Source of the DNA: Amphibalanus amphitrite
Taxonomy: Eukaryota; Arthropoda; Thecostraca; Balanomorpha; Balanidae
Assembly (NCBI RefSeq): GCF_019059575.1
Contig: NW_024881792.1
Coordinates: forward strand, 248,001 to 312,000
Reading direction: 5' to 3'
DNA: 64,000 bases
In this document: piece by piece, positions 13,713-64,000 of the stretch
How the letters are laid out: each line of letters starts with the position of its first letter
Position numbering within the stretch: the first letter of the stretch is position 1
Made by a program: the position numbers and the translations under genes
Notes under the pieces: generated by a model
Told to the model about the DNA's origin: nothing
Seen by the model: only the letters and a program-made list of their open reading frames with translations
Databases searched by the model: none

Positions 13713-13740
13713 CCAACTTGTAGATTTGGTTTACAGTGTT

Positions 13741-14868: not shown

Positions 14869-15414
14869 TAACCGCAGGTTGTTTGAAAAGACAAACACTA
14901 TTCGTTAGAATTGTGTTTTTCTAAGATCAGACCACATGACAAACCATGGGTTACTGGGACACTTCGGAGAGAAATGAGGAAAAGAGACAGACTATTCAGA
15001 CTAGCTCAGAGACACAAGACAGACCATCACTGGGACAATTGGAGACGACAGCGTAACTTTACCACTAGTCTTAACAAAACATTAAAGGAAAATCATCTCA
15101 ACAGTCAAGTAAATACTCTATTGCACTCAAAGAAAAATCCACACGAATATCACCGGACCCTGAAAAACATATTGGGACGACCACAGACAGAGACCATACC
15201 ACCACTCATAGGACCTGACGGAACTCCACTGACACAGGACTCTGACAAAGCTGACCTCTTAGGGGACTTTTTCGCCAGACAAACACAACTTGACAACGAC
15301 GACCAACCCATCCCCAGGACCGCCCCCACGGACCCACCTCCCCCTCCTTTAGACAACATTGTAACCGCAGGTTGTTTGAAAAGACAAACACTATTCGTTA
15401 GAATTGTGTTTTTC
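14429..15414. repeat. 493-bp tandem duplication of LINE plus hairpin
   Basis: 14429-14921 and 14922-15414 appear identical. Each copy holds LINE linker sequence followed by the first 50-odd bases of the TAACCGCAGG hairpin. The junction lies inside the hairpin, after GTGTTTTTC and next to TAAGATCAG. This duplicates 150 codons of the LINE and shows that a hairpin was already in the LINE when the duplication occurred. Confidence 0.95.
14869..14921. repeat. Hairpin start, truncated copy
   Basis: The first copy of the unit start TAACCGCAGG in the window, cut after about 53 bp by the tandem duplication. Confidence 0.9.
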
Positions 15415-16799
15415 TATTGAAAAACAACCGGAGCGGTCCTTCTCCGGGCTATGTTTTGCAAGTCTGGCAGCGAATCGAGACATCTTGATTGGGGCCTAGA
15501 CGAAATGTACAATCTTCGTAAAAAGTTCAGTGTATGGGCTCCCGGAGGCGATCTACCTTATGGCACCGGTCGCTACTCGCTTAAAACCTCGTGGCACGTG
15601 GCACGTGCGATTCCATTTTCCCCATGTTAAGTCAACGGGGTTTTGGACACTTTTTGCGCGATCGCCAATGGCGGGAAAACGAGCCAAGAAGGAGGTGGTT
15701 TTCTTCCCAGCATTTTATGGCAAACACGTTTGGGTACACGCCAGTGTGCGCTGTATACCCCTCAGAATCTCGGAACGTGTCTTTGCACGAGATCAAAGTT
15801 GGAATTTTGCTGTGTCCCATGTTAAGTCAATGGACGGCGATGTCGAGACTTTGCAGAGACATTTTCATTCGATCTTTGTACAAAATTTTAGCGATAGATT
15901 TCGCCCAAACTCTGATATCTTGTAGAGGAAAGAGCGTAGTACATGCTGGTATGCTTCGTTAAGCTGGCAGAAATCGTTTTTTCTTATAAAGTTTATTTGA
16001 AATTTAAATTTTTTAACATGGAAAGTCAATGGGAGCGTCTTTGTTGCTTAATAACTTTTTACGTTGCAGATGTATCAAAGTGAAAAGTTAATAAAATATA
16101 CAACTTTCGATGCTCTTTCCAACAATGTATAGAACGTCACTGCACGATGCGCCGTTTCTAAGAAAAGTTGTAAAAAAGCAGGGCTCGACTGTGACTTGAA
16201 CCCAACCACATTAAAATATACGAACAGGTGACGGGGATACCTCCCGTGTGCGGATGCGACACTGATTATTGCTAAATATTAGCAGTCGGCCGCCGTGGGG
16301 GCGCCTTTACAAACCTTATATCTCTGCAACCACTGGACCGATTCACTCGCGCTCTTTTGTGTGGGATAATTTCTTCCTTTCCCAAACGTAGTGTGCTACT
16401 CTCGATGCGTATGGGTGACCCCTAATGCACGTGCCACGTGCAAAACGAAGAGGTGTCAGTTCGGTAGCAAGTGTAATAACTCTAGTTATTTTGCCGAATA
16501 CGCTGATCCTTAGCATGGATGTAGGCACCCGCCCCGCAATGCATTTCCATGTGTCACGGTTGGGGTGCCGCTGCACGTGCGCACGGGCAGGGTGACGCTT
16601 CCAGATCTGGAGAACGGCTGGGCCGATTGTGATCAAAGTTGGCACACCGCTAGGGCTCGGCGAGTAGGGTGCCGTGCACAAGTCAGATGGGTCCCAGTTT
16701 GCACGTGCGCACGTGCAGGCTGACGCTTCCATATCTCAAGAACGGCTGGACCGACTGTGCTCAAATTTGGCATACCACTAGAGACTAGTTAGTAGGGTG
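15362..16799 (+). repeat. Repeat unit 1, type A, 3'-truncated
   Basis: Starts in the second LINE fragment. Order of parts shared by type A units: 76-nt imperfect hairpin (ACCGC...GCGGT); a head with CCCATGTTAAGTCAA words; an AT-rich middle; a block beginning GTATACGAACAGGTGACGG; then CACGTG monomers. Here it stops in the third monomer (AGTAGGGTG), where the next TAACCGCAGG begins. Open frames in it are not genes. Confidence 0.9.
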
Positions 16800-18671
16800 T
16801 AACCGCAGGTTGTTTGAAAAGACAAACACTATTCGTTAGAATTGTGTTTTTCTATTGAAAAACAACCGGAGCGGTCGTTCTCCGGGCTATGTTTTGCAAG
16901 TCTGGCCGCGAATCAGTACAACTTGGTCGCAGCCTAGACGAATCGCTCAATCTCCGTAAAAATTTCAGTGTATGGGCTCTCGGGGGCGATCTACCTGATG
17001 GCATTAGTCGCTACTCGCTTAAAATCTCGTGGCACGTGGCACGTGCGATTCCATTTTTTCCATAGTAAGTCAATGGGGTTTTGGGGCACTTTTTGTGCGA
17101 TCGCGAATAGCGGGAAAACGAGCCAAGGGAGAGGTGGTTTTCTTCCCAGCATTTTATGGGAAACACGTTCCGGTACACGCCAGTGTGCGCCGTACACCCC
17201 TTAGAAGTTCGTAACGTGTCTTTGCTCGAGGTCAAAGTTGAACTTTTTTCGCTCCCCATGTTAAGTCAATGGGCGCTTTTGCAGAGACATTTTCATTTGT
17301 TCATTGTACAAAACTATATGATACGATTTTGTTTAAACTGTCAGGACCTGTTGAGAAACGACCATAGAACATGTTGTTATGCTTCGTTAAGCTCTCAGAA
17401 TTCGTTTGGTCTTTTTAAGCTCGTTTAGAAATGAAAAATTTTAACATGGAAAGTCAATGGGGGCGTCTTTGGTGCTTAATAACTTTGTACGTTGAAGATA
17501 TATTTAAGTGAAAAGTTGATAGGATATACAACTTTTGATGCTCTTTCCAATGATATATAGAGCATTATTGCACGTTGTGCCGTTTTTGATGAATTTAGTA
17601 AAAAAGCACGACATTACCGAGATTTGAGCTCACACCTATATATGGTCTTGCTCAGACAGTATACGAACAGGTGACGGGGATACCTCCCAATGAAGGATGC
17701 GATTTAATGCTAAATATTAGCGGCCGGCCTCCGTGGGGACGTTTTTGCACGACTTATATCTCCGCAAGCAGGGGACCGATACACTTGCAGTTTTTTGTAA
17801 GGGGTAGCGTATACCCTTCTTACAAGTACTTCACTATGGACGATGCATGCGGGTGACCCCTATTGCACGTGACACGTGTAAAACGGAGAGGTGTCAGTTT
17901 TGTAATAAGTGCAATAACTCGGTAATTACTGGGCCGATTGCGCTGAAACTTGGTATGGAGGTAGTCACCTACTAGGCGATTCATTTTTATGTGCCACGGT
18001 AGGGGTGCCGCTGCACGTGCGCACGTGCAGGGTGACGCTTCCAGATCTCGTGACCGGCCGGGCCGATTGAGTTCAAATTTGGTACACCGCTAGAGACCGG
18101 TTAGTAGGGTGCCGTGCGGAGGTCAGTAAGGACCAATCTTGCACGTGCGCACGTGCAGGGTGAGGCTTTCAGATCTCAGGAACGGCCGGGACGATTGAAC
18201 TCAAATTCGGCACACTTCTAGGGACCGATCAGTAGGGTGCCGTGCACAAGTCAGTTAGTATGTATTTCCATGTGCCCAGACTGGGGTGCAGCTGCACGTG
18301 CGCACGTGCAGGGTGACGTTTTCAGATCTCGAGAACGGCCAGGCCGGATGAGCTCAAATTTGGTACACCGCTAGAGACCGGCGAATAGGGTGCCGTGCAA
18401 AAGTCAGATGGGACCATTTTGCACGTGCGCACGTGCAGGGTGTCGTTTCCAGATCTCGAAAACGGCCGGGTCGATTGCACTCAAATTTGGCACACCGCTA
18501 GAGACCGGTTAGTTGAGTGCAGTGCACGTCAGTTCGTAGCACACCCACTCTGATCTGCACGTGCAAGGCTCATCCTCTCGTTTGGCGGCGGGCGTTTTTG
18601 CGGCGTTACAGAGGTGCTTGCTCAAACAACCTGCGGTCCCGCGATGCGGAGCCCAGCATCGCAGATGCTGG
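16800..18671 (+). repeat. Repeat unit 2, type C, complete
   Basis: Hairpin start, type C head and middle (TATATGATACGATTTTG word), then monomers with the palindrome GCACGTGCGCACGTGC near 18013, 18141, 18293 and 18421, that is spacings of about 128, 152 and 128 bp. Ends with the inverted start TCAAACAACCTGCGGT (18622-18637) and the CCAGCATC/GATGCTGG hairpin, directly joined to the next unit. Confidence 0.92.
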
Positions 18672-20429: not shown

Positions 20430-22559
20430 TAACCGCAGGTTGTTTCTTCATTGACAAACACTATTCGTTAGAATTGTGTTTTTCTATTGAAAAACAACCG
20501 GAGCGGTCCTTCTCCGGGCTATGTTTTGCATGGTTGGCAGCGAATCAGTACAACTTGATTGGGGCCTAAACGAATCGCTCAATCTTCGTAAAAAGTTCAG
20601 GGTATGAGCTCCCGCAGGCGATCTACCTGATGGCACCGGTCGCTACTCGCTCAGAATTCTTTTGCGCGTGGCACGTGCGATTCCATTTTCCCCATGTTAA
20701 GTCAACGGGGTTTTGGACACTTTTTGCGCGATCGCGAATAGCGGAAAAAATCGCCGATCAAGGTAGGGTTTGCTGCACCCCATTTTATGACCGACACGTT
20801 CAGGTACACGCCCGTGGGCGCCGTATACCCGTCAGAATTCGTTAACTTGAGTTGCACGAGTTTGAAGTTGAACTTTTTTTGCTCCCCATGCTAAGTCAAT
20901 GGACGTTTTTGCAGAGACATTTTCATTCGTTCATTGCACAAAATTATATGATACGATTTTGTTTAAACTTTCAGGACCTGTTGAGAAACGACCATAGAAC
21001 ATGTTGTTATGCTTCGTTATGAAATATAATGGCCCGTTTTGGGGTAATCGGCACGTGCATTTTCCCATAGGGTTAACATGGGAAAAAAATAAAATGCGAT
21101 TTGCGAAAAATTTCGTCAATTATATTTGCTGATATTTTTAGGGTCGGATCTCGGGCTGGCACCCCAACTGACGGTGGTAACTACTTAAAATATAATTGAC
21201 AAAATTTCGGGTAATCGTCACAAACAGTTACCCCATGTTGAGCCTATGGCGATTTCGAAAAATTATTTTCAAATCGATTTTGTCAAAAATTTCCACGTTA
21301 GATTTTGAAAATGTTCCAATATGTTGTGCCCCAGGGTGTCGGCTACCACATGGTATGGGTCAGATATGGGGCGATTGAAAAGCACGTGCCACGTGCAAAC
21401 GTGTTTGATGGGGTAACCTCCGGGAAAATCCGACATTGGCCTACTCGGGGTCCTCTGGCGTGGAAACGACTTCAACTAGCGACACCAAATCAGTGCAGCC
21501 GGTGAGCAGATGAGTCCAGCTTGTCGCACTAGTGGTCACGTGTCGCACGTGCTATTGCACGTGCCGTGGCAGGGGGTCAATTTTGGTGCTTAAATATACT
21601 AGCATTGTGAAATGCAAGGAGTGAGGGAAATAGCCGTCAGGCCGTCAGTTTTTATGATAGGGTCGATCTGAAAACGGGTTTAGGCACAGAATGAAGACGT
21701 CTAAAAAACTGCTATCTCGGATTTTTTGTAAAATGAAAAATTTAAAATTCTGGGGAAGTTATATATTCGAAAGGTGAAATTTCCCTAAATTTTCCCGTTT
21801 TTCGAGTTTAGCCGTCCACTGTTCGGAGACGGTGACACCGGCCGGGGTCATCTTTTACATGCTGATGGCCACGTCGATGGGTCATCACGTGGCGTGAACG
21901 GTGAAGCTATCAGAGGTCCGGCACGTGCCACGTGGCCACGTGTTTGAGTCCCGTACCTCCCAGATTATCGTGTGTTTGCCGATTTGTGGCCTTATAGCAC
22001 GAAAACAGCACAAGCCAGGAACACTGAAATGGTGCAATCAGCGAGCGGACAAGTCCTGCTTACACCACCGGCGGTCACGTGGCACACGTGCAAATTTGTG
22101 CACCTCCGTTGCGGAGATATTTTATAGTGAAATATTGAAATAAACATAACTTTGTCAGTTTAAGTCCAATTGGGCTAGATTTTAGTGGGTGGATAAAATT
22201 GTTAAGCGACAGGAACGAATGCGCCACGTTTGTTGCAGTGCGCCACGTTTGTCTCAAAGCGCCATTTTTGCCGCAAATCACAGAATGTGCCTAACTTTAT
22301 CGAACATGGGACGATTAGGATGCGCTTTGATTGAGGGATGGCTGCTTAAACGGCAGATATGAATTCACCACACTTGCCGCAAGGCGCCATATTTGTCTTA
22401 ATGCGTCAGTGTTTAGTTTAACGGACGGCGTGCGTTTTTTTTTGCGGCAGTGTTTGTAGCACACCGACTCCCGTGTGCACGTGCAAGGCTCATCCCCTCG
22501 TTTGGCGGCGGGCGTTTTTGCTGCGTTTTCAAAGGTGCTTGCTCAAACAACCTGCGGTC
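20430..22559 (+). repeat. Repeat unit 4, type B
   Basis: A variant hairpin (TTGTTTCTTCATTGACAAAC) is followed by the shared head, then the type B tail starting GAAATATAATGG in place of monomers. The tail holds the inverted repeat GTCAATTATATTT (about 21115-21127) / AAATATAATTGAC (about 21188-21200), the hairpin TTTTCCCAT...ATGGGAAAA near 21060, and GCGCCACGTTTGT words near 22,220-22,265. The 3' inverted start is present near 22,545-22,560. Confidence 0.88.
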
Positions 22560-22668
22560 TATCCGCTGTCCTATTAGCTCCACTATTTTTTTCTGAGTTA
22601 TGAGCCTCCCGGTTCGATGTGCCTTCAGCTGTCGCCAGTGCTACGGAACGAGATACAGCTTCTTCTAC
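22560..22668. other. Unique segment replacing a unit's 5' hairpin
   Basis: Between the 3' inverted start of unit 4 and the head of unit 5 lies about 110 bp found nowhere else in the window. The downstream head begins at GTCTGGCCGCGAATCAG, so unit 5 has lost its hairpin here. Confidence 0.7.
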
Positions 22669-24570
22669 ATGTCTGGCCGCGAATCAGTACAACTTGACGG
22701 GGGCCTAGACGAAATGTACAATCTTCGTAAAAAGTTCAGGGTATGGGCTCCCGCAGGCGATCTACCTGATGGCACCGGTCGCTACTCGCTAAGAAGTCTT
22801 TTGCGCGTGGCACGTGCGATTCCATTTTCCCCATGTTAAGTCAACGGGGTTTTGGACACTTTTTGCGCGATCGCGAATGGCGGGAAAACGAGCCAAGAAG
22901 GAGGTGGTTTTCTTCCCAGCATTTTATGGCAAACACGTTTGGGTACACGCCAGTGTGCGCTGTATACCCCTCAGAATCTTGGAACGGTGCTTTGCACGAG
23001 GTCAAAGTTGGAATTTTGCTGTGTTCCATGTTAAGTCAATGGACGGCGATGCCGAGACTTTGCAGAGACATTTTCATTCGATCTTTGTACAAAATTTTAG
23101 AGATAGATTTTGCCCAAACTCTTATATCTTGTAGAGGAAAGAGCATAGTACATGCCGTTATGCTTCGTTAAGCTGGCAAAACTCATTTTTTCTTATAAAG
23201 TTCATTTGAAATTTAAAATTTTTAACATGGAAAGTCAATGGGAGCGTCTTTGTTGCTTAATAACTTTTTACGTTGCAGATATACCAAAGTGAAAAGTTAA
23301 TAAAATATACAACTTACGATGCTCTTTCCAACAATGTATAGAACGTCACTGCACGATGTGCCGTTTTTAAGAAAAGCTGTAAAAAAGCGGGGCTCGACTG
23401 TGACTTGAACCCAACCACATTAGAGTATACGAACAGGTGACGGCGATACCTCCCATGTGCGGACGCGACACTGATTATTGCTAAATATTAGCAGTAGGCC
23501 GCCTGTGGGGTGCCTTTACAAACCTTATATCTCTGCAACCACTGGACCCATTCACTCGCGGTCTTTTGTGTGGGATAGCTTCTTCCTTTCTCACACGTAG
23601 TGTGCTACTCTCGATGCGTATGTGTGACCCCTAATGCACGTGCCACGTGCAAAACGATGAGAAGTCAGTTCAGTAACAAGTCTAATAACTCTGTAGTTAG
23701 TTTGCCGATTGCGCTGGTACTTTGCATGGATGTTGGCACGCACCCGGCAATGCATTTCCATGTGTCACGGTTGGGGTGCCGCTGCACGTGCGCACGGGCA
23801 GGGTGACGCTTCCAGATCTCGAGAATGGCTGGGCCGATTGTGATCAAAGTTGGTACACCCTTAGGGCTCGGCGAGTAGGGTGCCGTGCACAAGTCAGATG
23901 GGACCCAGTTTGCACGTGCGCACGTGCAGGCTGACGCTTCCATATCTCAAGAACGTCTGGACCGACTGTGCTCAAATTTGGCATACCACTAGAGACTGGT
24001 TAGTAGGGTGCCGTGCACAAGTCAGATGGGATCCATTTTGCACGTGCGCACGTGCAGAGTGACGCTTCCAGATCTCAAGAACGGCTGGATCGATTGCACT
24101 CAAATTCGGCACACATTTAGAGACCGGTTAGTAGGGTGCTGCGCACAAGTCAGTTAGTATGTATATTCATGTGTCACGATTGGGGTGCAACTGCACGTGC
24201 TCACGTGTAGGGGTCGCTTCCAGATCTTGAAAACGGCTGGGCCGATTGAGCTCAAATTTCGTACACCGCTAGAGACCGGCGAATAGAGTGCCGTGCACAA
24301 GTCAGTTGGGACCCAGCTTGCACGTGCGCACGTGAAGGGTGCCGCTTCAAGATCTCGAAAATGGCCGGGCCGATTGCACTCAAATTTGGCACACCGCTAT
24401 AGACCGGCGAATAGGGTGCCGTGCACGTCAGTCCGTAGCACACCGACTCCGGTCTGCACGTGCAAGGTTCATCCTCTCGTTTGGCGGCGGGCGTTTTTGC
24501 TGCGTTTACAAAGGTGCTTGCTCAAACAACCTGCGGTCCCGCGATGCGGAGCCCAGCATCGCAGATGCTG
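22669..24570 (+). repeat. Repeat unit 5, type A, lacking 5' hairpin
   Basis: Type A head, middle and monomers, with the 3' inverted start at about 24522-24537 and the terminal hairpin. Unlike other copies the hairpin's right arm is complete here, giving the 12-bp stem GAGCCCAGCATC/GATGCTGGGCTC. Confidence 0.9.
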
Positions 24571-24797
24571 GGCTCTGTCAGCTCTTGAGGGCCCCTGCCC
24601 CCTGCCCTCCTTAACCCCCTCTTGGGGCCGATGCCTAAGGGTCCCACATGAGCACCTGAAAGCCCAGCCCAGGAGCCCAGCATCGCAGATGCTGGGCTCT
24701 GTCAGCTCTTGAGGGCCCCTGCCCCCTGCCCTCCTTAACCCCCTCTTGGGGCCGATGCCTAAGGGTCCCACATGAGCACCTGAAAGCCCACAGAGTT
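24550..24797. repeat. 124-bp direct repeat carrying the unit's terminal hairpin
   Basis: GAGCCCAGCATC...GATGCTGGGCTC and the following GTCAGCTCTTGAGGGCCCC... are repeated once, 124 bp apart. The terminal hairpin of the array unit has thus been copied together with flanking minisatellite DNA. Confidence 0.88.
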
Positions 24798-25610
24798 ATC
24801 TCAGGGCCCCATACCATTTTCTGAAGGCCCTCACCGGCTCTTGAGGGGCCCCAGACCGATATCCAAGGACCTCTGGCCAATGCCCGGGGGCGCAGGCCGA
24901 TGCCCGAGGGCCCCAAGCCGTTACCCGAGGGCCTAACACGGCTATCGCAGGGTATAATGCCACTTTCCGAGGGCCCTAACCGGCTCTTGAGGGCCCCAGG
25001 CCGATTCCTGAGATCCCCAGGCTGATGTGAGAGGGCCGACCGACTGAGGCGGCCCCTACGTCAGTTTCTAAGGGCGTCCATGACCGCCGTCTGGTCAAAG
25101 CTGATCTCTGGGGGACCTACGCAGGTTTTTAAGTGCACTCAGCTCTTGTTTAGGATCTCACACCGGCCTCTGAGATCGGATGGCTTATGCATGCCGCAGA
25201 GGAGCCCTTACCGGCTCCTGAGGGCTCCGTGCTGATAGTTGAGGGCCCCATGCCAATACTCGAGAGTCCCATTCAGTAATCTCAGCGCCCTACACCAGTT
25301 TGAGGAACGCCGTTCGGCCAAGGCCGACCTCCGAGGAAAAGCCCTTTGCAAGCCTCGGAGTGCCCTCACTTTCTTTTTTAGGATCTCACACCAACCTCTG
25401 AAGTCGCAGGGCTAAAGGATGCTTCTGATAACCCTTACTAGCTCGGACCCAAATCGATGCATGATGGCCCGACAGAAATGCCTGAGCAGCCCACACAGTA
25501 ATATCAGGGCTCACACCAGTTTCTGAGGGCCTACACGAACGCTTTTTGGCCAAGGTCGATGTCTCGGGGCCTTATTCAGGCATCGAGGCTACCCGGGCGC
25601 CAAGAGACGG
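24571..25610. repeat. Degenerate 21-22-bp GC-rich minisatellite
   Basis: Many diverged copies of GAGGGCCCCAGGCCGATNCC follow one another at about 21-22 bp, clearest at 24,830-25,040. No ORF is credible. It lies between unit 5 and the TTAA-family copy. Confidence 0.75.
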
Positions 25611-25767
25611 TGGGGAGCCTCCAGGCGAGCTTGCTTGGTAGTCTAGACGGCGGAACGGGGAGGGCACCGGGGCACCGTGCCCCCCTTTGATTTGGGCATT
25701 TTAACATTAGCCCTATGGGCGTTGCATTGAAAGAATGGGACCAAAAGTCGGCAGTGCCCCCCCCCCC
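25611..25767. other. GC-rich spacer
   Basis: Short non-coding stretch ending in a run of eleven C. It contains AACATTAGCCCTATGGG, akin to the CCCATAGGGTTAACATGGG palindrome of type B units. No other feature seen. Confidence 0.4.
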
Positions 25768-26655
25768 TTAACCCGCGCGGGGCTGGGGTCTCCAGCCGAA
25801 CGCGCGGGGCTGGGGGGGGGGGTAAATTTTACCCCCCCTGTTATCTCCCGAACTAACGGTCCGATTTGGAAAATTCAAACGCCAATCGAAAGCTCTCATC
25901 ACGAACTACTAAAAACATGTACTTAATTTAAAGTTTGAGGTCAAGGTCAAGGTCAGGTCAAGGGTACAAATTGCAAGTTTCTACAGTATCGGCCTTGCAC
26001 CGTAGTTGCCGAAGAATGGAGTCATGGACTGAGACTGATCGCCCAAAACGTGTTCTTAGGCTACCAAGACAATATTCGTTGCATAAAATATCATTCAGAG
26101 GTCAAGGTCAAGGTCAGGTCAGGTCAGGTCAGGTCACCAAAAAACAAAATATAGAAAAGGGCATATGCGACACATGTTTTATGGGTCATTTTACTCATAG
26201 AATTCAATAGGCACACTCAATAAGTGATATGGACCACCTCTGGATGAATTTCAGGTCGAGGTCAGGTCAAGGTCAGGTCAAGTGAGGTCAAATTTTGAAG
26301 TTGCTTGTTAAGGCCTAAAAAGGTGTCTATCTGATGCAGTTTTTCACGGCGAATCGAATGGTGCTATTTTTGTTTCCGTACGAGGTCTAGAACTTCCAAA
26401 AAGTCATTTTTCAAAAATTTTGTGTGTCGTGACGTCATAAAATTTTGAATAACTCCCACATTTTTGAACCGATTCTTCTAAAATTTGGTATGTAGGTGCA
26501 CATAGACCACTTCTCTGACATATATTCCGGTTTTTTCGATAGACTCAAAATTTTGGATTTTATAATGATTTTCCCAAAAAAGTCAGTTTTTTGAAAAAAT
26601 TTAGGCCAAAATCCAAAATTTTCAAAAAACCGAGATAGCCATTTGATAGACAAAG
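25768..26655. mobile_element. TTAA-family element, second copy (partial)
   Basis: Begins TTAACCCGCGCGGGGCTGGGG and carries a G-tract palindrome around TAAATTTTA (about 25,812-25,838). It holds three AGGTCA clusters and a GACACATGTTTTATGGGT block that matches the minus strand of the copy at 10430-11341, so it lies in opposite orientation. Its far end is not seen; a new repeat unit starts at 26656. No ORF. Confidence 0.7.
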
Positions 26656-28441: not shown

Positions 28442-28486
28442 TAACCGCAGGTTGTTTGAAAAGACAAACACTACGAAGACGACTTG
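28442..28486. repeat. 45-bp hairpin stub
   Basis: TAACCGCAGG start cut after ACAAACACTA, followed by CGAAGACGACTTG and another TAACCGCAGG. Repeated at 48452-48496. Confidence 0.9.
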
Positions 28487-33407: not shown

Positions 33408-33566
33408 ATATTATTGGTAATGTGAATATAGGTACTCCAAACGGCAAACACTGCTATTTTCTGGTATATATTAATGTTTGACCTGATTTTATATTATTGG
33501 TAATGTGAATATAGGTACTCCAAACACTGCTATTTTCGGGTATATATTAATGTTTGACCTGATTTT
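33408..33566. repeat. Tandem duplication, 83-bp unit
   Basis: ATATTATTGGTAATGTGAAT and the following TATATATTAATGTTTGACC recur 83 bp apart, the second copy lacking a few bases (GGCAAA). Confidence 0.9.
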
Positions 33567-46517: not shown

Positions 46518-46665
46518 TAACCGCAGGTTGTTTGAAAAGACAAACACTATGCACGTGCCAGGCTCATCCTTTCGTTTGGCGGCGGGCGTTTTTGCGGCGT
46601 TACAGAGGTGCTTGCTCAAACAACCTGCGGTCCCGCGATGCGGAGCCCAGCATCGCAGATGCTGG
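46518..46665 (+). repeat. 148-bp deleted mini-unit
   Basis: The start TAACCGCAGG...CAAACACTA is joined directly to GCACGTGCCAGGCTCATCC and the unit 3' end, giving a minimal copy with both termini and almost nothing between. Confidence 0.92.
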
Positions 46666-52426: not shown

Positions 52427-52483
52427 AACTGAAGAAGAAGTTTTGAAAGTTCTCAATAATATGGACCCTAACAAATCTAGTGG
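52427..52483 (+). pseudogene. 57-bp LINE ORF2 fragment
   Basis: Encodes TEEEVLKVLNNMDPNKSSG, the residues that precede RT motif 1 (KSxGPDGI) in CR1-like LINEs. Left neighbour is a unit's terminal hairpin, right neighbour a new TAACCGCAGG start. The LINE frame at 14868 (DNI) fits directly onto it. Confidence 0.82.
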
Positions 52484-55400
52484 TAACCGCAGGTTGTTTG
52501 AAAAGACAAACACTATTCGTTAGAATTGTGTTTTTCTATTGAAAAACAACCGGAGCGGTCGTTCTCCGGGCTATGTTTTGCAAGTCTGGCCGCGAATCAG
52601 TACAACTTGACCGGGGCCTAAACGAATCGCTCAATCTTCGTAAAAATTTCAGGGTATGGGCTCCAGCAGGCGATCTACCTGATGGCACCGGTCGCTACTC
52701 GCTTAAAACCTCGTGGCACGTGGCACGTGCGTTTCAATTTTCGCCCATGTTAAGTCAACGGGGTTTTGGACACTTTTTGCGCGATCGCGAATGGCGGAAA
52801 AACGAGCCAAGAAGGCGGTGGTTTTCTTCCTAGAATTTTATGGCAACCATGTTTGGGTACACGCTAGTGTGCGCCGTATACCCCTCAGAATTTCGTAACG
52901 TGCCTTTGAACGAGGTCAAAGTTGAACTTTTTTCGCTCCCCATGTTAAGTCAATGGGCATTTTTGCAGAGACATTTTCATTCGTTCATTGCACAAAATTA
53001 TATGATACGATTTTGTTTAAACTTTCAGGACCTGTTGAGAAACGACCATAGAACATGCTGTTATGCTTCGTTTTGAAATATAATGGCCCGTTTTGGGGTA
53101 ATCGGCACGTGCATTTTCCCATAGGGTTAACATGGGAAAAAATTAAAATGCGATTTGCGAAAAATTTCGTCAATTATATTTGCTGATATTTTTAGGGTCG
53201 GATCTCGGGCTGGCACCCCAACTGATGGTGGTAATTACTTAAAATATAATTGACAAAATTTCGGGTAATCGTCACAAACAGTTACCCCATGTTGAGCCTA
53301 TGGCGATTTCGAAATATTATTTTCAAATCGATTTTGTCAAAAATTTCCACGTTAGATTTTGAAAATGTTCCAATATGTTGTGCCCCGGGGTATCGGCTAC
53401 CACAAGGTATGGGTCAGATATGGGGCGATTGAAAAGCACGTGCCACGTGCAAACGTGTTTGATGGGGTAACCTCCGGGAAAATCCGACATTGGCCTACTT
53501 GGGGTCCTATGGCGTGGAAACGACTTCAACTAGCGACACCAAATCAGTGCAGCCGGTGAGCAGATGAGTCCAGCTTGTCGCACTAGTGGTCACGTGTCGC
53601 ACGTGCTATTGCACGTGCCGTGGCACGGGGTCAATTTTGGTGCTTAAGTATACTAGCATTGTGAAATGCAAGGAGTGGGGGAAATAGCCGTCAGGCCGTC
53701 AGTTTTTGTGATAGGGTCGATCTGAAAACGGGTTTAGGCACAGAATGAGGGGGGCTAAAAAACTGCTATCTCGGATTTTTTTGTAAAATGAAAAATTTAA
53801 AATTCTGGGGAAATTATATGTTCGAAAGGTGAAATTTCCTAAAATTTTCCCGTTTTTCGAGTTTAGCCGTCCACTGTTCAGAGACGGTGACACCGGCCGG
53901 GGTCATCTTTTACATGCTGATGGCCACGTCGATGGGTCATCACGTGGCGTGAACGGTAAAGCTATCAGAGGTCCGGCACGTGCCACGTGGCCACGTGTTT
54001 GAGTCGCGTACCTCCCAGATCATCGTGTGTTTGCCGATTTGTGGCCTTATAGCACGAAAACAGCACAAGCCAGGAACACTGAAATAGTGCAATCAGTGAG
54101 GGGACAAGTCCTGCTTACACTAACGGCGGTCACGTGGCACACGTACAAATTTGGGCACCTCTGTTGCGGAGATATTTTATAGTGAAATATTCAAATGAAC
54201 ATAACTTTGTCAGTTTAAGTCCAATTGGGCTAGACTTTGGTGGGTGGATAAAATTGTTAAGCGACAGGAACAAATGCGCCACGTTTGTCGCAGTGCGCCA
54301 CGTTTGTCTCAAAGCGCCATTTTTGCCACAAATCACAGAATGTGCGTAACTTTATCGAACATGGGACGATTAGGATGCGCTTTGATTGAGGGATGGCTGC
54401 TTAAACGGCAGATATGAATACACCACACTTGCCGCAAGGCGCCATATTTGTCTTAACCGCAGGTTGTTGTTTCATTAGATTCAAGATAGCACACCGACTC
54501 CGGTTAGCACACCGACTCCGGTCTGCACGTGCAAGGCTCATCCTCTCGTTTGGCGGCGGGCGTTTTTGCTGCGTTTACAAAGGTGCTTGCTCAAACAACC
54601 TGCGGTCCCGCGATGCGGAGCCCAGCATCGCAGATGCTGGTAATAACTGAAGAAGAAGTTTTGAAAGTTCTCAATAATACGGTCCTTCTCCGGGCTATGT
54701 TTTGCATGGTTGGCAGCGAATCAGTACAACTTGATTGGGGCCTAAACGAATCGCTCAATCTTCGTAAAAAGTTCAGGGTATGAGCTCCCGCAGGCGATCT
54801 ACCTGATGGCATCGGTCGCTACTCGCTCAGAATTCTTTTGCGCGTGGCACGTGCGATTCCATTTTCCCCATGTTAAGTCAACGGGGTTTTGGACACTTTT
54901 TGCGCGATCGCGAATAGCGGGAAAAATCGCCGATCAAGGTATGGTTTGCTGCACACCATTTTATGACCGACACGTTCAGGTACACGCCCGTGTGCGCCGT
55001 ATACCCGTCAGAATTCGTTAACTTGAGTTGCACGAGTTTGAAGTTGAACTTTTTTTGCTCCCCATGCTAAGTCAATGGACGTTTTTGCAGAGACATTTTC
55101 ATTCGTTCATTGCACAAAATTATATGATACGATTTTGTTTAAACTTTCAGGACCTGTTGAGAAACGACCATAGAACATGTTGTTATGCTTCATATGAAAT
55201 ATAATGGGCCCGTTTTGGGGTAATCGGCACGTGCATTTTCCCATAGGGTTAACATGGGAAAAAATTAAAATGCGATTTGCGAAAAATTTCGTCAATTATA
55301 TTTGCTGATGTTTTTAGGGTCGGATCTCGGGCTGGCACCCCAACTGACGGTGGTAATTACTTAAAATATAATTGACAAAATTTCGGGTAATCGTCACAAA

Positions 55401-56709
55401 CAGTTACCCCATGTTGAGCCTATGGCGATTTCGAAAAATTATTTTCAAATCGATTTGGTCAAAAATTTCCACGTTAGATTTTGAAAATGTTCCAATATGT
55501 TGTGCCCCGGGGTGTCGGCTACCACATGGTATGGGTCAGATATGGGGCGATTGAAAAGCACGTGCCACGTGCAAACGTGTTTGATGGGGTAACCTCCGGG
55601 AAAATCCGACATTGGCCTACTCGGGGTCCTATGGCGTGGAAACCACTCCACCTAGCGACACCAAATCAGTACAGCCGATGAGCAGATGAGTCCAGCTTGT
55701 TGCACCAGTGGTCGCGTGGCGCACGTGCTATTGCACGTGCCGTGGCACGGGGTCAATTTTTGTGCTTAAATATACTAGCATTGTGAAATGCAAGGAGTGG
55801 GGGAAATAGCCGTCAGGCCGTCAGTTTTTATGATAGGGTCGATCTGAAAACGGGTTTAGGCACGGAATGAAGGGGGCTAAAAAACTGCTATCTCGGATTT
55901 TTTTTAAAATGAAAAATTTAAAATTCTGGGGAAATTATATATTTGAAAGGTGAAATTTCCCTAAATTTTCCCGTTTTTCGAGTTTAGCCGTCCACTGTTC
56001 AGAGACGGTGACACCGGCCGGGGTCATCTTTTACATGCTGATGGCCACGTCGATGGGTCATCACGTGGCGTGAACGGTGAAGCTATCAAAGGTCCGGCAC
56101 GTGCCACGTGGCCACGTGTTTGAGTCGCGTACCTCCCAGATTATCGTGTGTTTGCCGAATTGTGGCCTTATAGCACGAAAACAGCGCAAGCCAGAAACAC
56201 TGAAATGGTGCAATCAGTGAGGGGACAAGTCCTGCTTACACCACCGGCGGTCACGTGGCACACGTGCAAATTTGGGCACCTCCGTTGCGGAGATATTTTA
56301 TAGTGAAATATTCAAATGAACATAACTTTGTCAGTTTAAGTCCAATTGAGCTAGACTTTGGTGGGTGGATAAAATTGTTAAGCGACAGGAAGGAATGCGC
56401 CACGTTTGTTGCAGTGCGCCACGTTTGTCTCAAAGCGCGTTTTTCACAATTAAAGCGGTTTTTCACAATTAAAGTCCCAACCTTCGGATCCGCAGTGCTG
56501 TTCGATAAGCGCTGCCCGGGCCTATGTATTTTCATGTGCCACGGTTGGGGTGCAGCTGCACGTGCGCACGTGTAGGGGTCGCTTCAAGATAGCACACCGA
56601 CTCCGGTCTGCACGTGCAAGGCTCATCCTCCCGTTTGGCGGCGGGCGTTTTTGCTGCGTAACCGCAGGTTGTTTGAAAAGACAAACACTATTCGTTAGAA
56701 TTGTGTTTT
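52484..56709 (+). repeat. 4.3-kb duplicated block, copy 2 (units 17-18)
   Basis: Copy of 40420-44645: type B unit (52484-54453), mini-unit (54454-54639), LINE fragment (54640-54680), type B unit lacking its hairpin (54681-56439), junction segment and hairpin stub (56659-56709). Confidence 0.93.
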
Positions 56710-58764
56710 TAACCGCAGGTTGTTTGAAAAGACAAACACTATTCGTTAGAATTGTGTTTTTCTATTGAAAAACAACCGGAGCGGTCGTTCTCCGGGCTAT
56801 GTTTTGCAAGTCTGGCCGCGAATCGAGACATCTTGAGTCTGGCCTAAACGAATCGCTCAATCTTCGTAAAAAGTTCAGTGTATGGGCTCCCGGAGGCGAT
56901 CTACCTGATGGCACCGGTCGCTACTCGCTAAGAAGTCTTTTGCGCGTGGCACGTGCGATTCCATTTTCCCCATGTTAAGTGAACGGGGTTTTGGACACTT
57001 TTTGCGCGATCGCCAATAGCGGGAAAACGAGCCAAGAAGGAGGTGGTTTTCTTCCCAGCATTTTATGGCAAACACGTTTGGGTACACGCTAGTGTGCGCT
57101 GTATACCCGCCAGAATCTCGTGGCACGTGGCACGTGCGATTCCATTTTCCCCATGTTAAGTGAACGGGGTTTTGGACACTTTTTGCGCGATCGCCAATGG
57201 CGGGAAAACGAGCCAAGGAAGAGGTGGTTTTCTTCCCAGCATTTTATGGCAAACACATTTGGGTACACGCCAGTGTGCGCTGTATACCCCTCAGAATCTC
57301 GGAACGTGTCTTTGCACGAGATCAAAGTTGGAATTTTGCTGTGTCCCATGTTAAGTCAATGGACGGCGATGCCGAGACTTTGCAGAGACATTTTCATTCG
57401 TTCATTGTACAAAATTTTAGAGATAGAATTTGCCCAAACTCTTATAGCTTGTACAGGAAAGAGCGTAGTACATGCTGGTATGCTTCGTTAAGCTGGCAGA
57501 AATCGTTTTTTCTAATAAAGTTCGTTGGAAAATGAAAATTTTTAACATGGAAAGTCAATGGGAGCGTCTTTATTCCTCTATAACTTTTATCTTTAGTAAG
57601 ACATATAGGTGAAAAGTTAATATAATATACAACTTCTGATGCTCTTTCCACTGGTGCATAGAACGTCACTGCACGATGTGCCGTTTTTAAGAAAAGCTGT
57701 AAAAAATCAGGGCTCGACTGTGACTTGAACCCAACTACATTAGAGTATACGAACAAGTGAAGGGGACACCTCCCATGTGCGGACGCGACGCTGATTATTG
57801 CTAATTATTGGCAGTCGGCCGCCCTGGGGGCGCCTTTGCAAAGCTTATATCTCCACAACCGCTTGACCGATTCACTTGCGGTCTTTTGTGTGGGATAGCT
57901 TCTTCCTTTCTCACACGTAGTGTACTATCCTCGATACGTATGGGTGACCCCTAATGCACGTGCCACGTGCAAAACGAAGAGGTGTCAGTTCGGTAACAAG
58001 TCTAATAACTCTGTAGTTAGTTTGCCGATTGCACTGATACTTGGCATGGATGTAGGCACCCGCCGTGCAATGCATTTCCATGTGTCACGGTTGGGGTGCC
58101 GCTGCACGTGCGCACGGGCAGGGTGACGCTTCCAGATCTCGAGAACGGCTGGGCCGATTGTGATCAAACTTGGCACACCGTTAGGGATCGGCGAGTAGGG
58201 TGCCGTGCACAAGTCAGATGGGGCCCAGTTTGCACGTGCGCACGTGCAGGCTGACGCTTCCATATCTCAAGAACGGCTGAACTGACTGTGCTCAAATTTG
58301 GCATACCACTAGAGACTGGTTAGTAGGGTGCCGTGCACAAGTCAGTAAGTATGTATTTTCATGTGCCGCGGTTGGGGTGCAGCTGCACGTGCGCACGTGT
58401 AGGGGTCATTTCCCGATCTTGGAAACGGCTGGGCCGATTCAGATTAAATTTGGTACATCGCAAGAAACCGGCGAATAGAGTGCCGTGCACAAGTCAATTG
58501 GGGCCCAGGCTGCACGTGCGCACGTGCAGGGTATCGCTTCCAGATCTCGAAAACGGCCGGGTCGATTGCACTCAAATTTGGCATACCGCTATAGACCGGC
58601 GAATAGGGTGCCGTGCACGTCAGTCCGTAGCACACCGACTCCGGTCTGCACGTGCAAGGCTCATCCTCTCGTTTGGCGGCGGGCGTTTTTGCTGCGTTTA
58701 CAAAGGTGCTTGCTCAAACAACCTGCGGTCCCGCGATGCGGAGCCCAGCATCGCAGATGCTGGT
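56710..58764 (+). repeat. Repeat unit 19, type A (copy of unit 16)
   Basis: Matches 50372-52426, including the 181-bp head duplication, so that duplication predates the 6,338-bp-spaced copy. Confidence 0.93.
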
Positions 58765-58821
58765 AACTGAAGAAGAAGTTTTGAAAGTTCTCAATAATAT
58801 GGACCCTAACAAATCTAGTGG
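58765..58821 (+). pseudogene. 57-bp LINE ORF2 fragment, second copy
   Basis: Same as 52427-52483. Confidence 0.82.
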
Positions 58822-60691
58822 TAACCGCAGGTTGTTTGAAAAGACAAACACTATTCGTTAGAATTGTGTTTTTCTATTGAAAAACAACCGGAGCGGTCGT
58901 TCTCCGGGCTATGTTTTGCAAGTCTGGCAGCGAATCGAGACATCTTGATTGGGGCCTAGACGAAATGTACAATCTTCGTAAAAAGTTCAGTGTATAGGCT
59001 CCCGGAGGCGATCTACCTGATGGCACCGGTCGCTACTCGCTTAAAACCTCGTGGCACGTGGCACGTGCGTTTCAATTTTCGCCCATGTTAAGTCAACGGG
59101 GTTTTGGACACTTTTTGCGCGATCGCGAATGGCGGAAAAACGAGCCAAGAAGGCGGTGGTTTTCTTCCTAGAATTTTATGGCAACCATGTTTGGGTACAC
59201 GCTAGTGTGCGCCGTATACCCCTCAGAATTTCGTAACGTGCCTTTGAACGAGGTCAAAGTTGAACTTTTTTCGCTCCCCATGTTAAGTCAATGGGCATTT
59301 TTGCAGAGACATTTTCATTCGTTCATTGCACAAAATTATATGATACGATTTTGTTTAAACTTTCAGGACCTGTTGAGAAACGACCATAGAACATGCTGTT
59401 ATGCTTCGTTTTGAAATATAATGGCCCGTTTTGGGGTAATCGGCACGTGCATTTTCCCATAGGGTTAACATGGGAAAAAATTAAAATGCGATTTGCGAAA
59501 AATTTCGTCAATTATATTTGCTGATATTTTTAGGGTCGGATCTCGGGCTGGCACCCCAACTGATGGTGGTAATTACTTAAAATATAATTGACAAAATTTC
59601 GGGTAATCGTCACAAACAGTTACCCCATGTTGAGCCTATGGCGATTTCGAAATATTATTTTCAAATCGATTTTGTCAAAAATTTCCACGTTAGATTTTGA
59701 AAATGTTCCAATATGTTGTGCCCCGGGGTATCGGCTACCACAAGGTATGGGTCAGATATGGGGCGATTGAAAAGCACGTGCCACGTGCAAACGTGTTTGA
59801 TGGGGTAACCTCCGGGAAAATCCGACATTGGCCTACTTGGGGTCCTATGGCGTGGAAACGACTTCAACTAGCGACACCAAATCAGTGCAGCCGGTGAGCA
59901 GATGAGTCCAGCTTGTCGCACTAGTGGTCACGTGTCGCACGTGCTATTGCACGTGCCGTGGCACGGGGTCAATTTTGGTGCTTAAGTATACTAGCATTGT
60001 GAAATGCAAGGAGTGGGGGAAATAGCCGTCAGGCCGTCAGTTTTTGTGATAGGGTCGATCTGAAAACGGGTTTAGGCACAGAATGAGGGGGGCTAAAAAA
60101 CTGCTATCTCGGATTTTTTTTGTAAAATGAAAAATTTAAAATTCTGGGGAAATTATATGTTCGAAAGGTGAAATTTCCTAAAATTTTCCCGTTTTTCGAG
60201 TTTAGCCGTCCACTGTTCAGAGACGGTGACACCGGCCGGGGTCATCTTTTACATGCTGATGGCCACGTCGATGGGTCATCACGTGGCGTGAACGGTAAAG
60301 CTATCAGAGGTCCGGCACGTGCCACGTGGCCACGTGTTTGAGTCGCGTACCTCCCAGATCATCGTGTGTTTGCCGATTTGTGGCCTTATAGCACGAAAAC
60401 AGCACAAGCCAGGAACACTGAAATAGTGCAATCAGTGAGGGGACAAGTCCTGCTTACACTAACGGCGGTCACGTGGCACACGTACAAATTTGGGCACCTC
60501 TGTTGCGGAGATATTTTATAGTGAAATATTCAAATGAACATAACTTTGTCAGTTTAAGTCCAATTGGGCTAGACTTTGGTGGGTGGATAAAATTGTTAAG
60601 CGACAGGAACAAATGCGCCACGTTTGTCGCAGTGCGCCACGTTTGTCTCAAAGCGCCATTTTTGCCACAAATCACAGAATGTGCGTAACTT
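58822..60691 (+). repeat. Repeat unit 20, type B, chimeric head
   Basis: The first about 200 bp match type A units such as 46666 (GCAGCGAATCGAGACATC). From about 59040 it follows unit 17 (52702 on) apart from about one extra T in a T-run near 60,120. It ends at GTGCGTAACTT, cut by the next start. Confidence 0.9.
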
Positions 60692-61532
60692 TAACCGCAG
60701 GTTGTTTGAAAAGACAAACACTATTCGTTAGAATTGTGTTTTTCTATTGAAAAACAACCGGAGCGGTCCTTCTCCGGGCTATGTTTTGCATGTCTGGCCG
60801 CGAATTGGGGCAACTTGGGTCAGGCCTAAACTTGTGGCTCGATTTTCTTAAAAATTTCAGTGTATGGGCTCCCGCAGGCGATCTACCTGTTGGCACCGGT
60901 CGCTACTCGCTTAAAACCTCGTGGCACGTGGCACGTGCGATTCCATTTTCCCCATGTTAAGTCAACGGGGTTTTGGACACTTTTTGCGCGATCGGGAATA
61001 GCGGAAAAACGAGCCAAGGAAGAGGTGGTTTTCTTCCCAGCATTTTATGGCAAACACGTTTGGGTACACGCTGGTGTGCGCCGTATACCCCTCAGAACTT
61101 CGTAACGTGTCTTTGCACGAGGTCAAAGTTGAATTTTTTTCGCTCCCCATGTTAAGTCAATGGGCGTTTTTGCAGAGACTTTTTCATTCGCTCATTGTAC
61201 AAAATTATATGATACGATTTTGTTTAAACTTTCAGGACTTGTTGAGAAAAGACCATAGAACATGTTGTTATGCTTCTTTAAGCTGTGCAAATTCGTTTGT
61301 TCTTTTTAGGCTCGTTTAAAAATGAAAAATTTTAACATGGAAAGTGAATGGGAGCGTCTTTGCTGCTTAATAACTTTTTACAGTTGAGATATATTTAAGT
61401 GAAAAGTTGATAGGTTATACAACTTTTGATGCTCTTTCCAATGATATATACAACTTTATTGCACGTGGTGCCGTTTTTGAGAAATATAGTAAAAAAGCAC
61501 GACATTACCGAGATTTGAGCTCAGACCTATAT

Positions 61533-62576
61533 CGTTACGGTGTCAGGCGGACACGAGGACAGGTGGCGCCGCCGCCGCCCGCATAGCGGCGGGAATGTGA
61601 ACTAACCTGTTTACCAGAGGGGTGTTCACGGGCACCGCACACTGCTGCGTGCGCTGTGTGCGGTGCGTCCAGCAGGCGTGGGGGTAGGGGATGGGTAGGC
61701 GGTTCTGACGTCACGGCTGCGTGCGGTGGACGGTCCGCTGTGGCCAGTCCCGACCGGCCACAGCGATCGCTGTGTGCGGTGACGGAAGGCTGACGTAGGG
61801 ACGCAGTGGGCGGAGCTTGGAGGCTATGTGCGGTCCGACCGCACACAGGGCCCGTGAACAGCCCTCTGATCTATGGTATGGTACCATCGGGGGACCGGCC
61901 GCCGTCGGCACCATTTCGGGACTTTGCATCGCAATAAAAGGCTTATTTACAATTGAAAATGGACTAGCGAGAGTCGTTATGGAATCAGAATTTGATGCTC
62001 TACAAAACTAGGCTATTTTCATTGTGATGGCATCACAGACTACACCGCTAAACCCAATAAAGCAGATTTATGTCGCGTCATCGATGATTACATATAATGT
62101 TTCTTTGATATATATGTAGTCGGGTCTTTCAGCTGCGTCCCTCCCCTCCCTCGCCGCGCCGGCGGGTCGGCCATCCGCGGCTTGCCGCCCGCCGGCTGCT
62201 GGCCGGTCAGCTGGCCGGTCAGCTGGTCGCCCGCGGCTGTCGGTGCAGTGCGGGATGCCTACTTGCGGGGGGCCGTCGTGGCGGCGGCCCGGGTGGACTG
62301 GGCGAGCAGTGAGTTGGGGAGCGCTGCGCTGTCGGTGCTCTAGTTTGTATTGCGTTCGCATGATACGGCTTGAGCCAATACAGAGTGAACTGATTGAGCT
62401 GAGCAAGTCTTTATATACATTGAAAAGTAAAGCACTTTTTACTGCATCTACGGTGAGATGCTAGATAAAATTTATGGTCTAATGGTACCCATTACTTAAC
62501 AATTAAGTGAATCATTTCGTCGCTAAACTCTCGTAAATTCGTATGTCCGCCTCACTATGGAGTTTGGACCGTAACG
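61533..62576. mobile_element. Second copy of the CGTTACGG element, with nested insert
   Basis: Same element as 38976-39776 with a few small differences, enlarged by a 253-bp insertion at 61616-61868. Confidence 0.68.
61616..61868. mobile_element. 253-bp MITE-like insertion
   Basis: The ends are inverted: AGAGGGGTGTTCACGGGC on the left; read inward from the right CAGAGGGCTGTTCACGGGC. The empty site is seen in the paralogue (39059/39060: TTTACC-ATCTATGG). The filled site has the same flanks with no evident target duplication. hAT-like CAG ends, but the missing 8-bp duplication argues against a plain hAT insertion. Confidence 0.75.
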
Positions 62577-63526
62577 TATGGCCTTTGCTCAGACAGTATA
62601 CGAACAGGTGACGGGGATACCTCCCATAGAAGGATGCGACACGATTTTACTGCTAAATAGCGGCCGGCCGCCGTGGGGACGTTTTTGTACGACTTATATC
62701 TCGGCAACCACTGGGCTGATACACGTGCGGTTTTTTGTGTGGGGTAGCTTTTTCCCTTCTTTCACATAGTGTGCTACTCTCGATGCATATGGGTGACCCC
62801 TAACGCACGTTCCACGTGCAAAGCCAAGAGGTGCCTGTTTTGTAATAAGCGCAATAGCTCGCGGTAATTACTGGGCCGATTGCGCTAAAACTTGGCATGG
62901 AGGTAGACACTTTCCAGGCGATGCATTTCCATGTGTCTTGGTAGGGGTGCAACTGCACGTGCGCACGTGCAGGGTGACGCTTCCAGATCTCGAGAACGGC
63001 TGGACCGATTGTGTTCAAATTTGGCATAACGCTTGATACCGATCAGTAGGTTGCAGTCATTTAGTATGTATTTCCATGTGCCACGATTGGGGTGCAACTG
63101 CACGTGCGCACGTGCAGGGTGACGCTTCCAGATCTCGAGAACGGCCGGGCCGATTGAGTTCAAATTTGGTACACCGCTAGAGACCGATTAGTAGGGTGCC
63201 GACTGCCGTGCGCAAGTCAGTTTGGACCCATCTTGCACGTGCGCACGTGCAGGGTGACGCTTCCAGATCTCAAGAACGGCTGGACCGATTGCACTCAAAT
63301 TCGGCAAACATCTAGAGATCGATCAGTAGGGTGCCGTGCACAAGTCAGTTAGTATGTATTTCCATGTGTCACGGTTGAGATGCAACTGCACGTGCGCACG
63401 TGGAGGGGTCGTTTCAAGATCTTGAAAACGGCTGGGCCGATTGAGCTCGAATTTGGTACACCGCTAGAGACCGGCGAATAGGGTCCCATGCACAATGCAA
63501 TTGGACACAGCTTGCACGTGCGCACG

Positions 63527-64000
63527 TAACCGCAGGTTGTTTGAAAAGACAAACACTATTCGTTAGAATTGTGTTTTTCTATTGAAAAACAACCGGAGCG
63601 GTCGTTGTCCGGGCTATGTTTTGCAAGTCTGGCAGCGAATTGGGGCAACTTGGTAGGGGCCTAGACTAAATGTACAATCGTCGCAAAAAGTTCAGTGTAT
63701 GGGCTCCCGGAGGCGATCTACCTGATGGCAACGGTCGCTACTCGCTTAAAACCTCGTGGCACGTGGCACGTGCGATTCCATTTTTCCCATGTTAAGTCAA
63801 CGGGGTTTTGGACACTTTTTGCGCGATCGCGAATGGCGGGAAAACGAGCCAAGGAAGAGGTGGTTTTCTTCCCAGCATTTTATGGCAAACACGTTTGGGT
63901 ACACGCCAGTGTGCGCTGTATACCCCTCAGAATCTCGGAACGTGTCTTTGCACGAGGTCAAAGTTGGAATTTTCCTGTGTCCCATGTTAAGTCAATGGAC
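63527..64000 (+). repeat. Repeat unit 22, type A, running off the window
   Basis: Hairpin start and type A head. The window ends at the second GTTAAGTCAATGGAC word. Confidence 0.92.

Follow-up and report, generated by a model that had tools for sequence, protein, structure and literature searches.

A head-to-tail array of Helitron2-like elements inside a LINE of Amphibalanus amphitrite and how it may have grown

It is still an open question how a rolling-circle transposon becomes satellite DNA; the detailed transposition experiments that we considered used a canonical Helitron. This question is relevant to a 64,000-nucleotide stretch of the Amphibalanus amphitrite genome (hereafter the window; RefSeq assembly GCF_019059575.1, contig NW_024881792.1, positions 248,001 to 312,000, forward strand), in which ~49 kb consist of head-to-tail copies of non-coding mobile DNA with ends resembling those of rolling-circle transposons. 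Nearly all copies start at one and the same base, and the points at which they stop differ from copy to copy. Going by structure, from which the class is taken, the array of putative non-autonomous Helitron2-like elements is real and well formed. An initial annotation of this DNA had likened the units to non-autonomous Helentrons and had the array begin at 15362; the array is indeed present there, and the first copy of its start repeat lies slightly earlier, at 14869, inside a long interspersed nuclear element (LINE). We asked what these units are and how such an array might have grown.

Anatomy and conservation of the units

The start repeat TAACCGCAGG is present in 27 exact copies, all on the forward strand, compared to 0.10 expected by chance (none of 100 shuffles reached 27), in agreement with the count and the head-to-tail arrangement given in the initial annotation. 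A complete unit consists of TA and a 16-bp repeat, an interior, the exact inverse of that repeat, and a further 34 bp holding two hairpins. In the 1875-bp reference unit (Table 1), TA is followed by ACCGCAGGTTGTTTGA, and the perfect inverse TCAAACAACCTGCGGT lies 34 bp before the end, such that the placement of the two 16-bp repeats is asymmetric, with 2 nt outside the 5' copy and 34 bp outside the 3' copy. Among 2000 base shuffles of both unit ends, no inverted match was longer than 11 bp, and the perfect inverse that had been proposed near the unit end is thus borne out; the end of the reference unit itself, first given as 30362, is corrected to 30361.

Both ends fold. As single-stranded DNA, the first 76 nt form one long hairpin with the 5' inverted repeat as its outer stem, and this hairpin is strong when tested (85 nt, -17.4 kcal/mol, z -4.42, none of 200 shuffles equally stable), folded for one unit of a stretch that is 98-99.7% identical between units. 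At the other end, the inverse repeat is followed by the hairpins CCGC-GAT-GCGG and CCAGCATC-GCA-GATGCTGG, as had been described; we place them in 34 bp and find 11 such complete 3' ends in the array, each terminating in a hairpin with an 8-bp stem. Taken as a whole, the 66-nt 3' end with its two small hairpins is not unusually stable (z -1.21, 20 of 200 shuffles). TAA follows 10 of the 11 complete ends, and in five of these it is the start of the next unit. The asymmetric terminal inverted repeats, 3' hairpin and internal tandem repeats of the initial annotation are all supported. At 24548-24790, a 3' hairpin and its GC-rich flank are duplicated exactly with a 124-bp period, and the stem there is longer since the flank starts with GCTC.

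The ends are also the best conserved parts of the units. When 19 unit segments were aligned (each bin comparing 7 to 16 of them, with the second copies of the multi-unit blocks X, Y and Z excluded), mean pairwise identity was 98-99.7% over the first 76 bases, 94% at 77-110, 94% at 1740-1780 and 97.5-100% over the last 95 bases (100% at 1843-1875 in the seven segments compared). The interior was 83-93% identical, compared to 94-100% for the ends. Conserved ends with a drifting interior are expected for a mobile element, and less so for a passively amplified repeat.

The interiors define subfamilies. Units of subfamily A match the reference over its whole length; B units have their first ~589 bp in common with A and C, followed by an interior of their own; and C units have ~800 bp and related central repeats in common and carry inserts. 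In the common 5' part, B and C units are 80-85% identical to the A reference, and identity between B and C is ~92% in most pairs (86% for the unit at 20430). Because the subfamilies diverge to this extent, the array is not a copy of one circle.

Joints, host LINE and multi-unit blocks

Complete units are a minority. A start directly follows a complete 3' end in only five of 27 cases (18672, 38135, 46518, 46666 and 50372), and start 30368 is separated from one by 6 bp (TAAAAT). The remaining 21 starts are preceded by a truncated copy, a mini-unit, LINE sequence or foreign DNA. An internally cut unit lies to the left of 16800, 28442, 32103, 40420, 42390, 44595, 44646, 60692 and 63527, and likewise of the block-copy starts 48452, 54454, 56659 and 56710; start 20430 follows an A-to-B mosaic, also cut internally. 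Starts 28487 and 48497 follow a 32-nt mini-unit with 13 nt of filler, 52484 and 58822 follow 58 bp of LINE, 14869 and 15362 follow the LINE itself, and 26656 follows foreign DNA. Mini-units are opened by starts 14869, 28442, 42390, 44595 and 46518 and by the block copies of three of these; starts 14869, 44595 and 46518 lie in exact local tandem duplications (493, 51 and 148 bp) and need not be separate transposition events. When the alignment was read by eye, no complete 3' end was seen to be followed directly by a leftover 3' part of another unit, the trace that nested insertion into an older unit would leave.

The joints show three regularities, each noticed first and tested afterwards. Counted over 16 distinct left contexts, the base before the start is G in 11 and T in five, and never A or C (chance 4e-5). 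For nine truncations, an intact homologue shows the base that follows the cut, and this is T in six (chance 0.016), C in two and A in one, the last (40420) resting on a weak alignment; the other seven contexts, left out of this score, are the LINE, a complete end, a complete end with TAAAAT, foreign DNA, the mini-unit with filler, the 58-bp LINE sequence and the mosaic before 20430. Finally, five of 14 distinct truncations fall within the first 76 of 1875 bases (chance 1.6e-4 under an even spread), as if replication often broke in the 76-nt hairpin, and three of these five (14869, 44595 and 46518) could be local tandem duplications.

The array sits in a LINE, presumably of the CR1/L2-like clade, and we infer that 10017 and 15361 belong to one such element. 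The first 14.4 kb of the window hold domains of non-LTR (long terminal repeat) retrotransposons, namely that of a reverse transcriptase (frame 5488-7539) and that of an endonuclease (~11.36-11.97 kb). Before the array, the LINE reads ...GACAACATTG, and at 52426 and 58764 complete 3' ends are followed by TAACTGAAGAAG..., 58 bp in all, and then by the next start; the first 36 bp of this sequence recur at 42580 and 54644, after a 3' end and TAA. When the LINE flanks are joined without the array, the frame stays open over 148 residues spanning the joint and, apart from the TAAC that the element also carries, no target sequence is duplicated. We read the LINE target as G^TAAC (^ marks the joint), and take the right flank to have entered the array when copying ran on beyond the 3' end. 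The joined frame had no match in PDB up to E 10, and its score against the other LINE of the window (32) was no better than that of shuffles (123 of 300 equally good). As this homology support failed, the empty site rests on the open frame and on a motif that we take to resemble the beginning of a LINE reverse transcriptase. A further pair, ACAAAG and TAAAAT, which flanks the first copy of block X, also reads G^TAA and lies inside the array. We rejected independent insertions with a 4-bp TAAC duplication, since TAAC precedes CGCAGG in 27 of 27 copies over the 16 distinct contexts. Within the array TAAC is part of the element and not a target duplication; at the single LINE site a duplication is possible.

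Three multi-unit blocks (3.7-4.2 kb, 99.6-100% identical) occur twice each, and each starts exactly at TAACC with different left neighbours in its two copies. Block X is fully identical over 3706 bp, and the units that follow it differ by 7%. The two copies of block Z (50372-52483 and 56710-58821) show no difference in 2112 bp and run on into a B unit to 54352 and 60691; the resulting Z+B copies are 99.6% identical, their differences being a 77-bp cluster and one run-length gap. The 77-bp cluster is of A type (99% identical to 44741-44845), so this patch in a B unit is probably the product of a short conversion or of a template switch. The right edge of block X is a complete 3' end, behind which one copy reads TAAAAT and the other TAACC; Y ends 51 nt into a further start, and Z+B at AACTT. 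All three blocks are explained by a strand that begins at the fixed base, extends over several units and terminates after G or T.

Six local tandem duplications are also present, and only one of them, of 51 bp (44595-44697, exact), begins at a start. Besides the 493-bp duplication at the left edge (Table 1), the others are exact at 24548-24790 (124 bp), 34136-35652 (759 bp) and 46402-46698 (148 bp), and 96% identical at 50607-50963 (181 bp).

Table 1. Features of the window and their coordinates (^ marks a joint or cut)
Feature	Position	Strand	Remarks
Interrupted LINE hosting the array	10017-15361	+	Pfam Exo_endo_phos ~11359-11970; frame open to the joint at 15361
Exact 493-bp tandem duplication	14429-15416	+	LINE flank and first 55 bp of element
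Array of Helitron2-like units	15362-64000	+	Head-to-tail; extends beyond window edge
Longest B unit	20430-22559	+	Keeps 104 bp of the family's 3' part, without final hairpins
Foreign DNA, ~2.1 kb	24572-26655	+	Between complete 3' end and next start; no Pfam domain in six frames
Block X, copy 1	26656-30361	+	Three starts; 100% identical to 46666-50371; flanks ACAAAG, TAAAAT
Reference complete unit	28487-30361	+	Subfamily A, 1875 bp
5' end of reference unit	28487-28562	+	TA and 16-bp inverted repeat within 76-nt hairpin; from fold and unit identity
Central tandem repeats	29668-30216	+	~128 bp each
3' end of reference unit	30312-30361	+	Inverse of 5' repeat, then the two hairpins
Mostly foreign DNA, ~5.1 kb	32889-37997	+	Within a unit, C-type 5' part to 3' end; no Pfam domain in six frames
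B unit	40420-42389	+	Cut at T^TAAT
Block Y, copy 1	40420-44645	+	4226 bp, 2 mismatches to copy 2
Block X, copy 2	46666-50371	+	
Block Z+B, one copy	50372-54352	+	Right edge inside B unit, T^TATCG
LINE sequence, 58 bp	52426-52483	+	Between complete 3' end and next start; exact copy 58764-58821
Block Y, copy 2	52484-56709	+	
Block Z+B, other copy	56710-60691	+	Ends ...AACTT^TAACC where 54352 reads ...AACTT^TATCG
C unit	60692-63526	+	3' end truncated

A one-ended rolling-circle model and its rivals

We put at roughly two-thirds the probability that the units are non-autonomous Helitron2-type rolling-circle transposons and that the array has grown by one-ended transposition, with insertion at element starts. 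The units have a fixed 5' base, an inverted repeat in a 5' hairpin, a 3' hairpin, conserved ends and truncated 3' sides, and the left edges of the blocks lie at starts. Base-precise starts, left copies cut at many points, blocks that run from starts, and a LINE flank behind a 3' end fit one-ended rolling-circle transposition with 3' bypass. In such a mechanism, a Rep/helicase encoded elsewhere would move the units, nicking just before TAACC; displacement of a strand would then run over one unit or more and stop either at the 3' hairpin (...GATGCTGG) or, prematurely or too late, elsewhere after a G or T. Insertion of the product would take place at G^TAA or T^TAA sites. Because each element opens with TAAC behind a G or T, and so offers such a target itself, new copies would tend to land at an older start, and the head-to-tail array would thereby grow inside one LINE.

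As to coding content, we scanned parts of the window against Pfam in six frames, treating stop codons as X: 1-14402 (E up to 0.01) and 20430-22669, 24571-26657, 28487-30363 and 32889-37999, with one frame of 60692-63526 (E up to 0.1). Eight single frames were scanned as well, and most of the remaining array, apart from the inserts of C units, is homologous to scanned units. These scans gave LINE domains and a few matches below curated cut-offs; for the parts so covered, the earlier statement that the window has no Rep or helicase stands.

A number of observations weigh against the one-ended model. Beyond the missing Rep/helicase in the parts scanned, three of the nine scorable truncations are not followed by T; GCTC and not TAA follows one of the 11 complete 3' ends, at 24571; and two independent joints are without a 5' end, as the unit at 22668 is without its first 97 bp and that at 42616 (copy 54680) without 72 bp. 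The five tandem duplications that do not begin at a start (493, 124, 148, 759 and 181 bp) need another process. Doubt had been raised in the initial annotation over the T-T insertion rule, and justly so: the 16 left contexts hold 11 G and five T, and the sites with two flanks read G^TAAC and G^TAAA, so insertion is not strictly between T and T. Both flanks are available for only two insertion sites, and of these one (G^TAAAAT) lies within the array; at the LINE site a TAAC target duplication cannot be told from none. Finally, Helraiser, a bat Helitron, gave scattered insertions and no local hopping (PMC4778049; this and the papers below are cited from excerpts), which speaks, for this canonical Helitron at least, against preferred insertion next to a resident copy.

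We considered that the units might be Helitron2-like elements, as in the one-ended model, but that the array was amplified by unequal recombination in the manner of a higher-order satellite, with rolling-circle transposition having made only the non-homologous joints. The two accounts overlap in the nature of the element, and our confidences in them are not meant to sum to 1. Recombination is a serious rival because exchange within the identical first ~76-110 bp would mimic a block edge at a start; moreover, the two ends, where exchange would be most favoured, are the most conserved stretches, multi-kb blocks that are nearly identical adjoin neighbours of 92-93% identity, and the A-type patch in the B unit suggests conversion. 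However, the right edges of X (TAAAAT compared to TAACC) and of Z+B (T^TATCG compared to T^TAACC) are without homology, and the many different non-homologous joints at TAACC are not the product of homologous exchange. We regard this explanation as a real possibility, clearly less likely than not.

An assembly artefact, in which the identical blocks are mis-joins at the 76-bp start common to the units, would suit both the 99.6-100% identity of the blocks and the position of their left edges at a stretch common to nearly all units, but it leaves the element anatomy and the distinct non-homologous joints unexplained, and we think it unlikely. A minus-strand retroposon with the fixed 3' end ...CCTGCGGTTA, variably 5'-truncated in target-primed reverse transcription, would give the same picture mirrored, a fixed end and a variable one, with the 58 bp of LINE as a 5' transduction, but is highly improbable given that no tail or common sequence lies beyond the fixed end in 16 distinct contexts, that the single LINE site has no target duplication beyond the ambiguous TAAC, that the array parts scanned hold no Pfam domain, and that Helitron2 explains the asymmetric repeats and the hairpins at both ends. 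A simple tandem satellite as the whole story was rejected, since left copies end at many places and the next begins at TAACC. On balance, we favour one-ended rolling-circle transposition with insertion at element starts as the way in which the array grew, a reading not proven against unequal recombination or assembly error.

With one-ended transposition as the working model, the locus seems to record initiation at the same base, termination and bypass at many sites after G or T, carriage of LINE sequence, and recent multi-unit duplications. The model predicts circles with G^TAACC or T^TAACC joints, and new insertions directly before existing starts. A further step, which we advance tentatively and regard as rather doubtful, is that the element's first bases copy its own target, such that each insertion would provide a fresh target, and composite multi-unit mobilisation might yield a self-growing, satellite-like array with higher-order repeats.

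Several other features were noted. A ~0.8-kb insert in a C unit (38976-39776), with inverted ends CGTTACGGT...ACCGTAACG and TAT on either side, is probably a nested DNA transposon. The exact 759-bp duplication at 34136-35652 lies in the foreign DNA of unit 32103, and each of its copies holds a stretch 75% like the element interior. A frame next to the reverse transcriptase (5103-5531) gave a sub-threshold GDSL-lipase match (21.1 bits, cut-off 32.9); GDSL-lipase domains occur in the first frame of some CR1 LINEs. Regions 10880-11185, in the host LINE, and 25938-26281, in foreign DNA of the array, are weakly similar in opposite orientation and hold AGGTCA-type repeats, and a minisatellite (808-1291; 49 bp, ~10 copies) lies far from the array. 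Scans of the window gave no Rfam match and no tRNA. An exact 15-mer pattern occurred at 50 loci of viral contigs, none of which matched the window by blastn (E 1e-3); exact 23- and 27-mer patterns had no match in viral contigs, nor had a 28-mer in prokaryote genome contigs.

Comparison with known systems

Helitron2 elements are described as beginning with T and as having short terminal inverted repeats that are placed asymmetrically: the repeat at the 5' terminus is separated from it by 0-2 bp and takes part in a hairpin there, and its 3' partner stops ~20-30 bp short of the terminus, with a hairpin downstream of it (Bao and Jurka 2013, PMC3627910). The units have the same 5' repeat position, 3' partner upstream of a hairpin, 5' hairpin using the repeat, and 5' T; they differ in a 3' repeat 34 bp from the end, in an inverted repeat of 16 bp compared to 8-15 bp, and in insertion after G or T, compared to after TTTT in Chlamydomonas Helitron2 families (PMC3627910). 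With asymmetric terminal inverted repeats, a 5' hairpin using the 5' repeat and a 3' terminal hairpin all found, the units agree with the Helitron2 description in almost every point.

Non-autonomous Helentrons (DINE-1 and the Helentron-derived elements termed HINEs) likewise have sub-terminal inverted repeats, a 3' palindrome, middle tandem repeats and no clear target duplication (PMC4067079; oyster Cg_HINE, PMC7492417). In mite HINEs, the sub-terminal repeats lie 2-4 nt and 38-60 bp from the ends, with a 3' palindrome and T-rich targets (Thomas 2014, PMC4067079). In contrast, the units miss the T^T target, their 3' repeat is 34 bp from the end, and their palindrome stands at the very end, not 8-35 bp from it (PMC4067079); they match the HINE description except for the target and small distances. 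The Helitron2 group is described as including Helentrons, with an end structure close to that of Helentrons and HINEs (PMC3627910, PMC4067079, PMC5148889). Its Fusarium members insert after TNAT (PMC5148889), a target that differs as well, so target rules vary.

A canonical Helitron (Helitron1) was rejected, as the 5' end is TA and not TC and A never precedes the start in 16 contexts; the 3' end CTGG fits the canonical CTRR by letters. We also rejected a cut-and-paste DNA transposon of the miniature inverted-repeat type with symmetric terminal repeats, as the repeats lie 2 and 34 bp from the ends. Of the class first proposed, the rolling-circle anatomy holds and the T^T rule does not; a Helentron would also have as its partner a Rep/helicase that bears an endonuclease and has matching ends. 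Descent from Helentrons (HINE) is not established, and we use the safer term non-autonomous Helitron2-like element.

The plant tandem arrays of Xiong 2016 reportedly consist of canonical Helitrons. Tandem Helitrons with 3'-truncated inner copies have been published (PMC7492417, PMC12628747), and as in the plant arrays of truncated Helitrons (Xiong 2016; via PMC12628747, PMC5148889), 5' ends here outnumber 3' ends, cuts lie on the 3' side, and a rolling-circle model is proposed. Many of the plant arrays have a single 3' end (PMC12628747, PMC5148889), whereas this one has several subfamilies, 11 complete 3' ends, multi-unit blocks and Helitron2-like termini. Our literature search, whose limited coverage makes this say little, turned up no Helitron2-type array that is described as containing multi-unit blocks. 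Elements have been observed to insert close to the 5' end of a resident copy (PMC5148889). Helraiser differs in being a canonical Helitron for which no local hopping was seen, and the excerpts cited do not deal with arrays; what it has in common with the model for the units is that the 5' end is required and the 3' end not strictly so, that truncated and read-through 3' ends arise, and that circles with head-to-tail joints form (PMC4778049).

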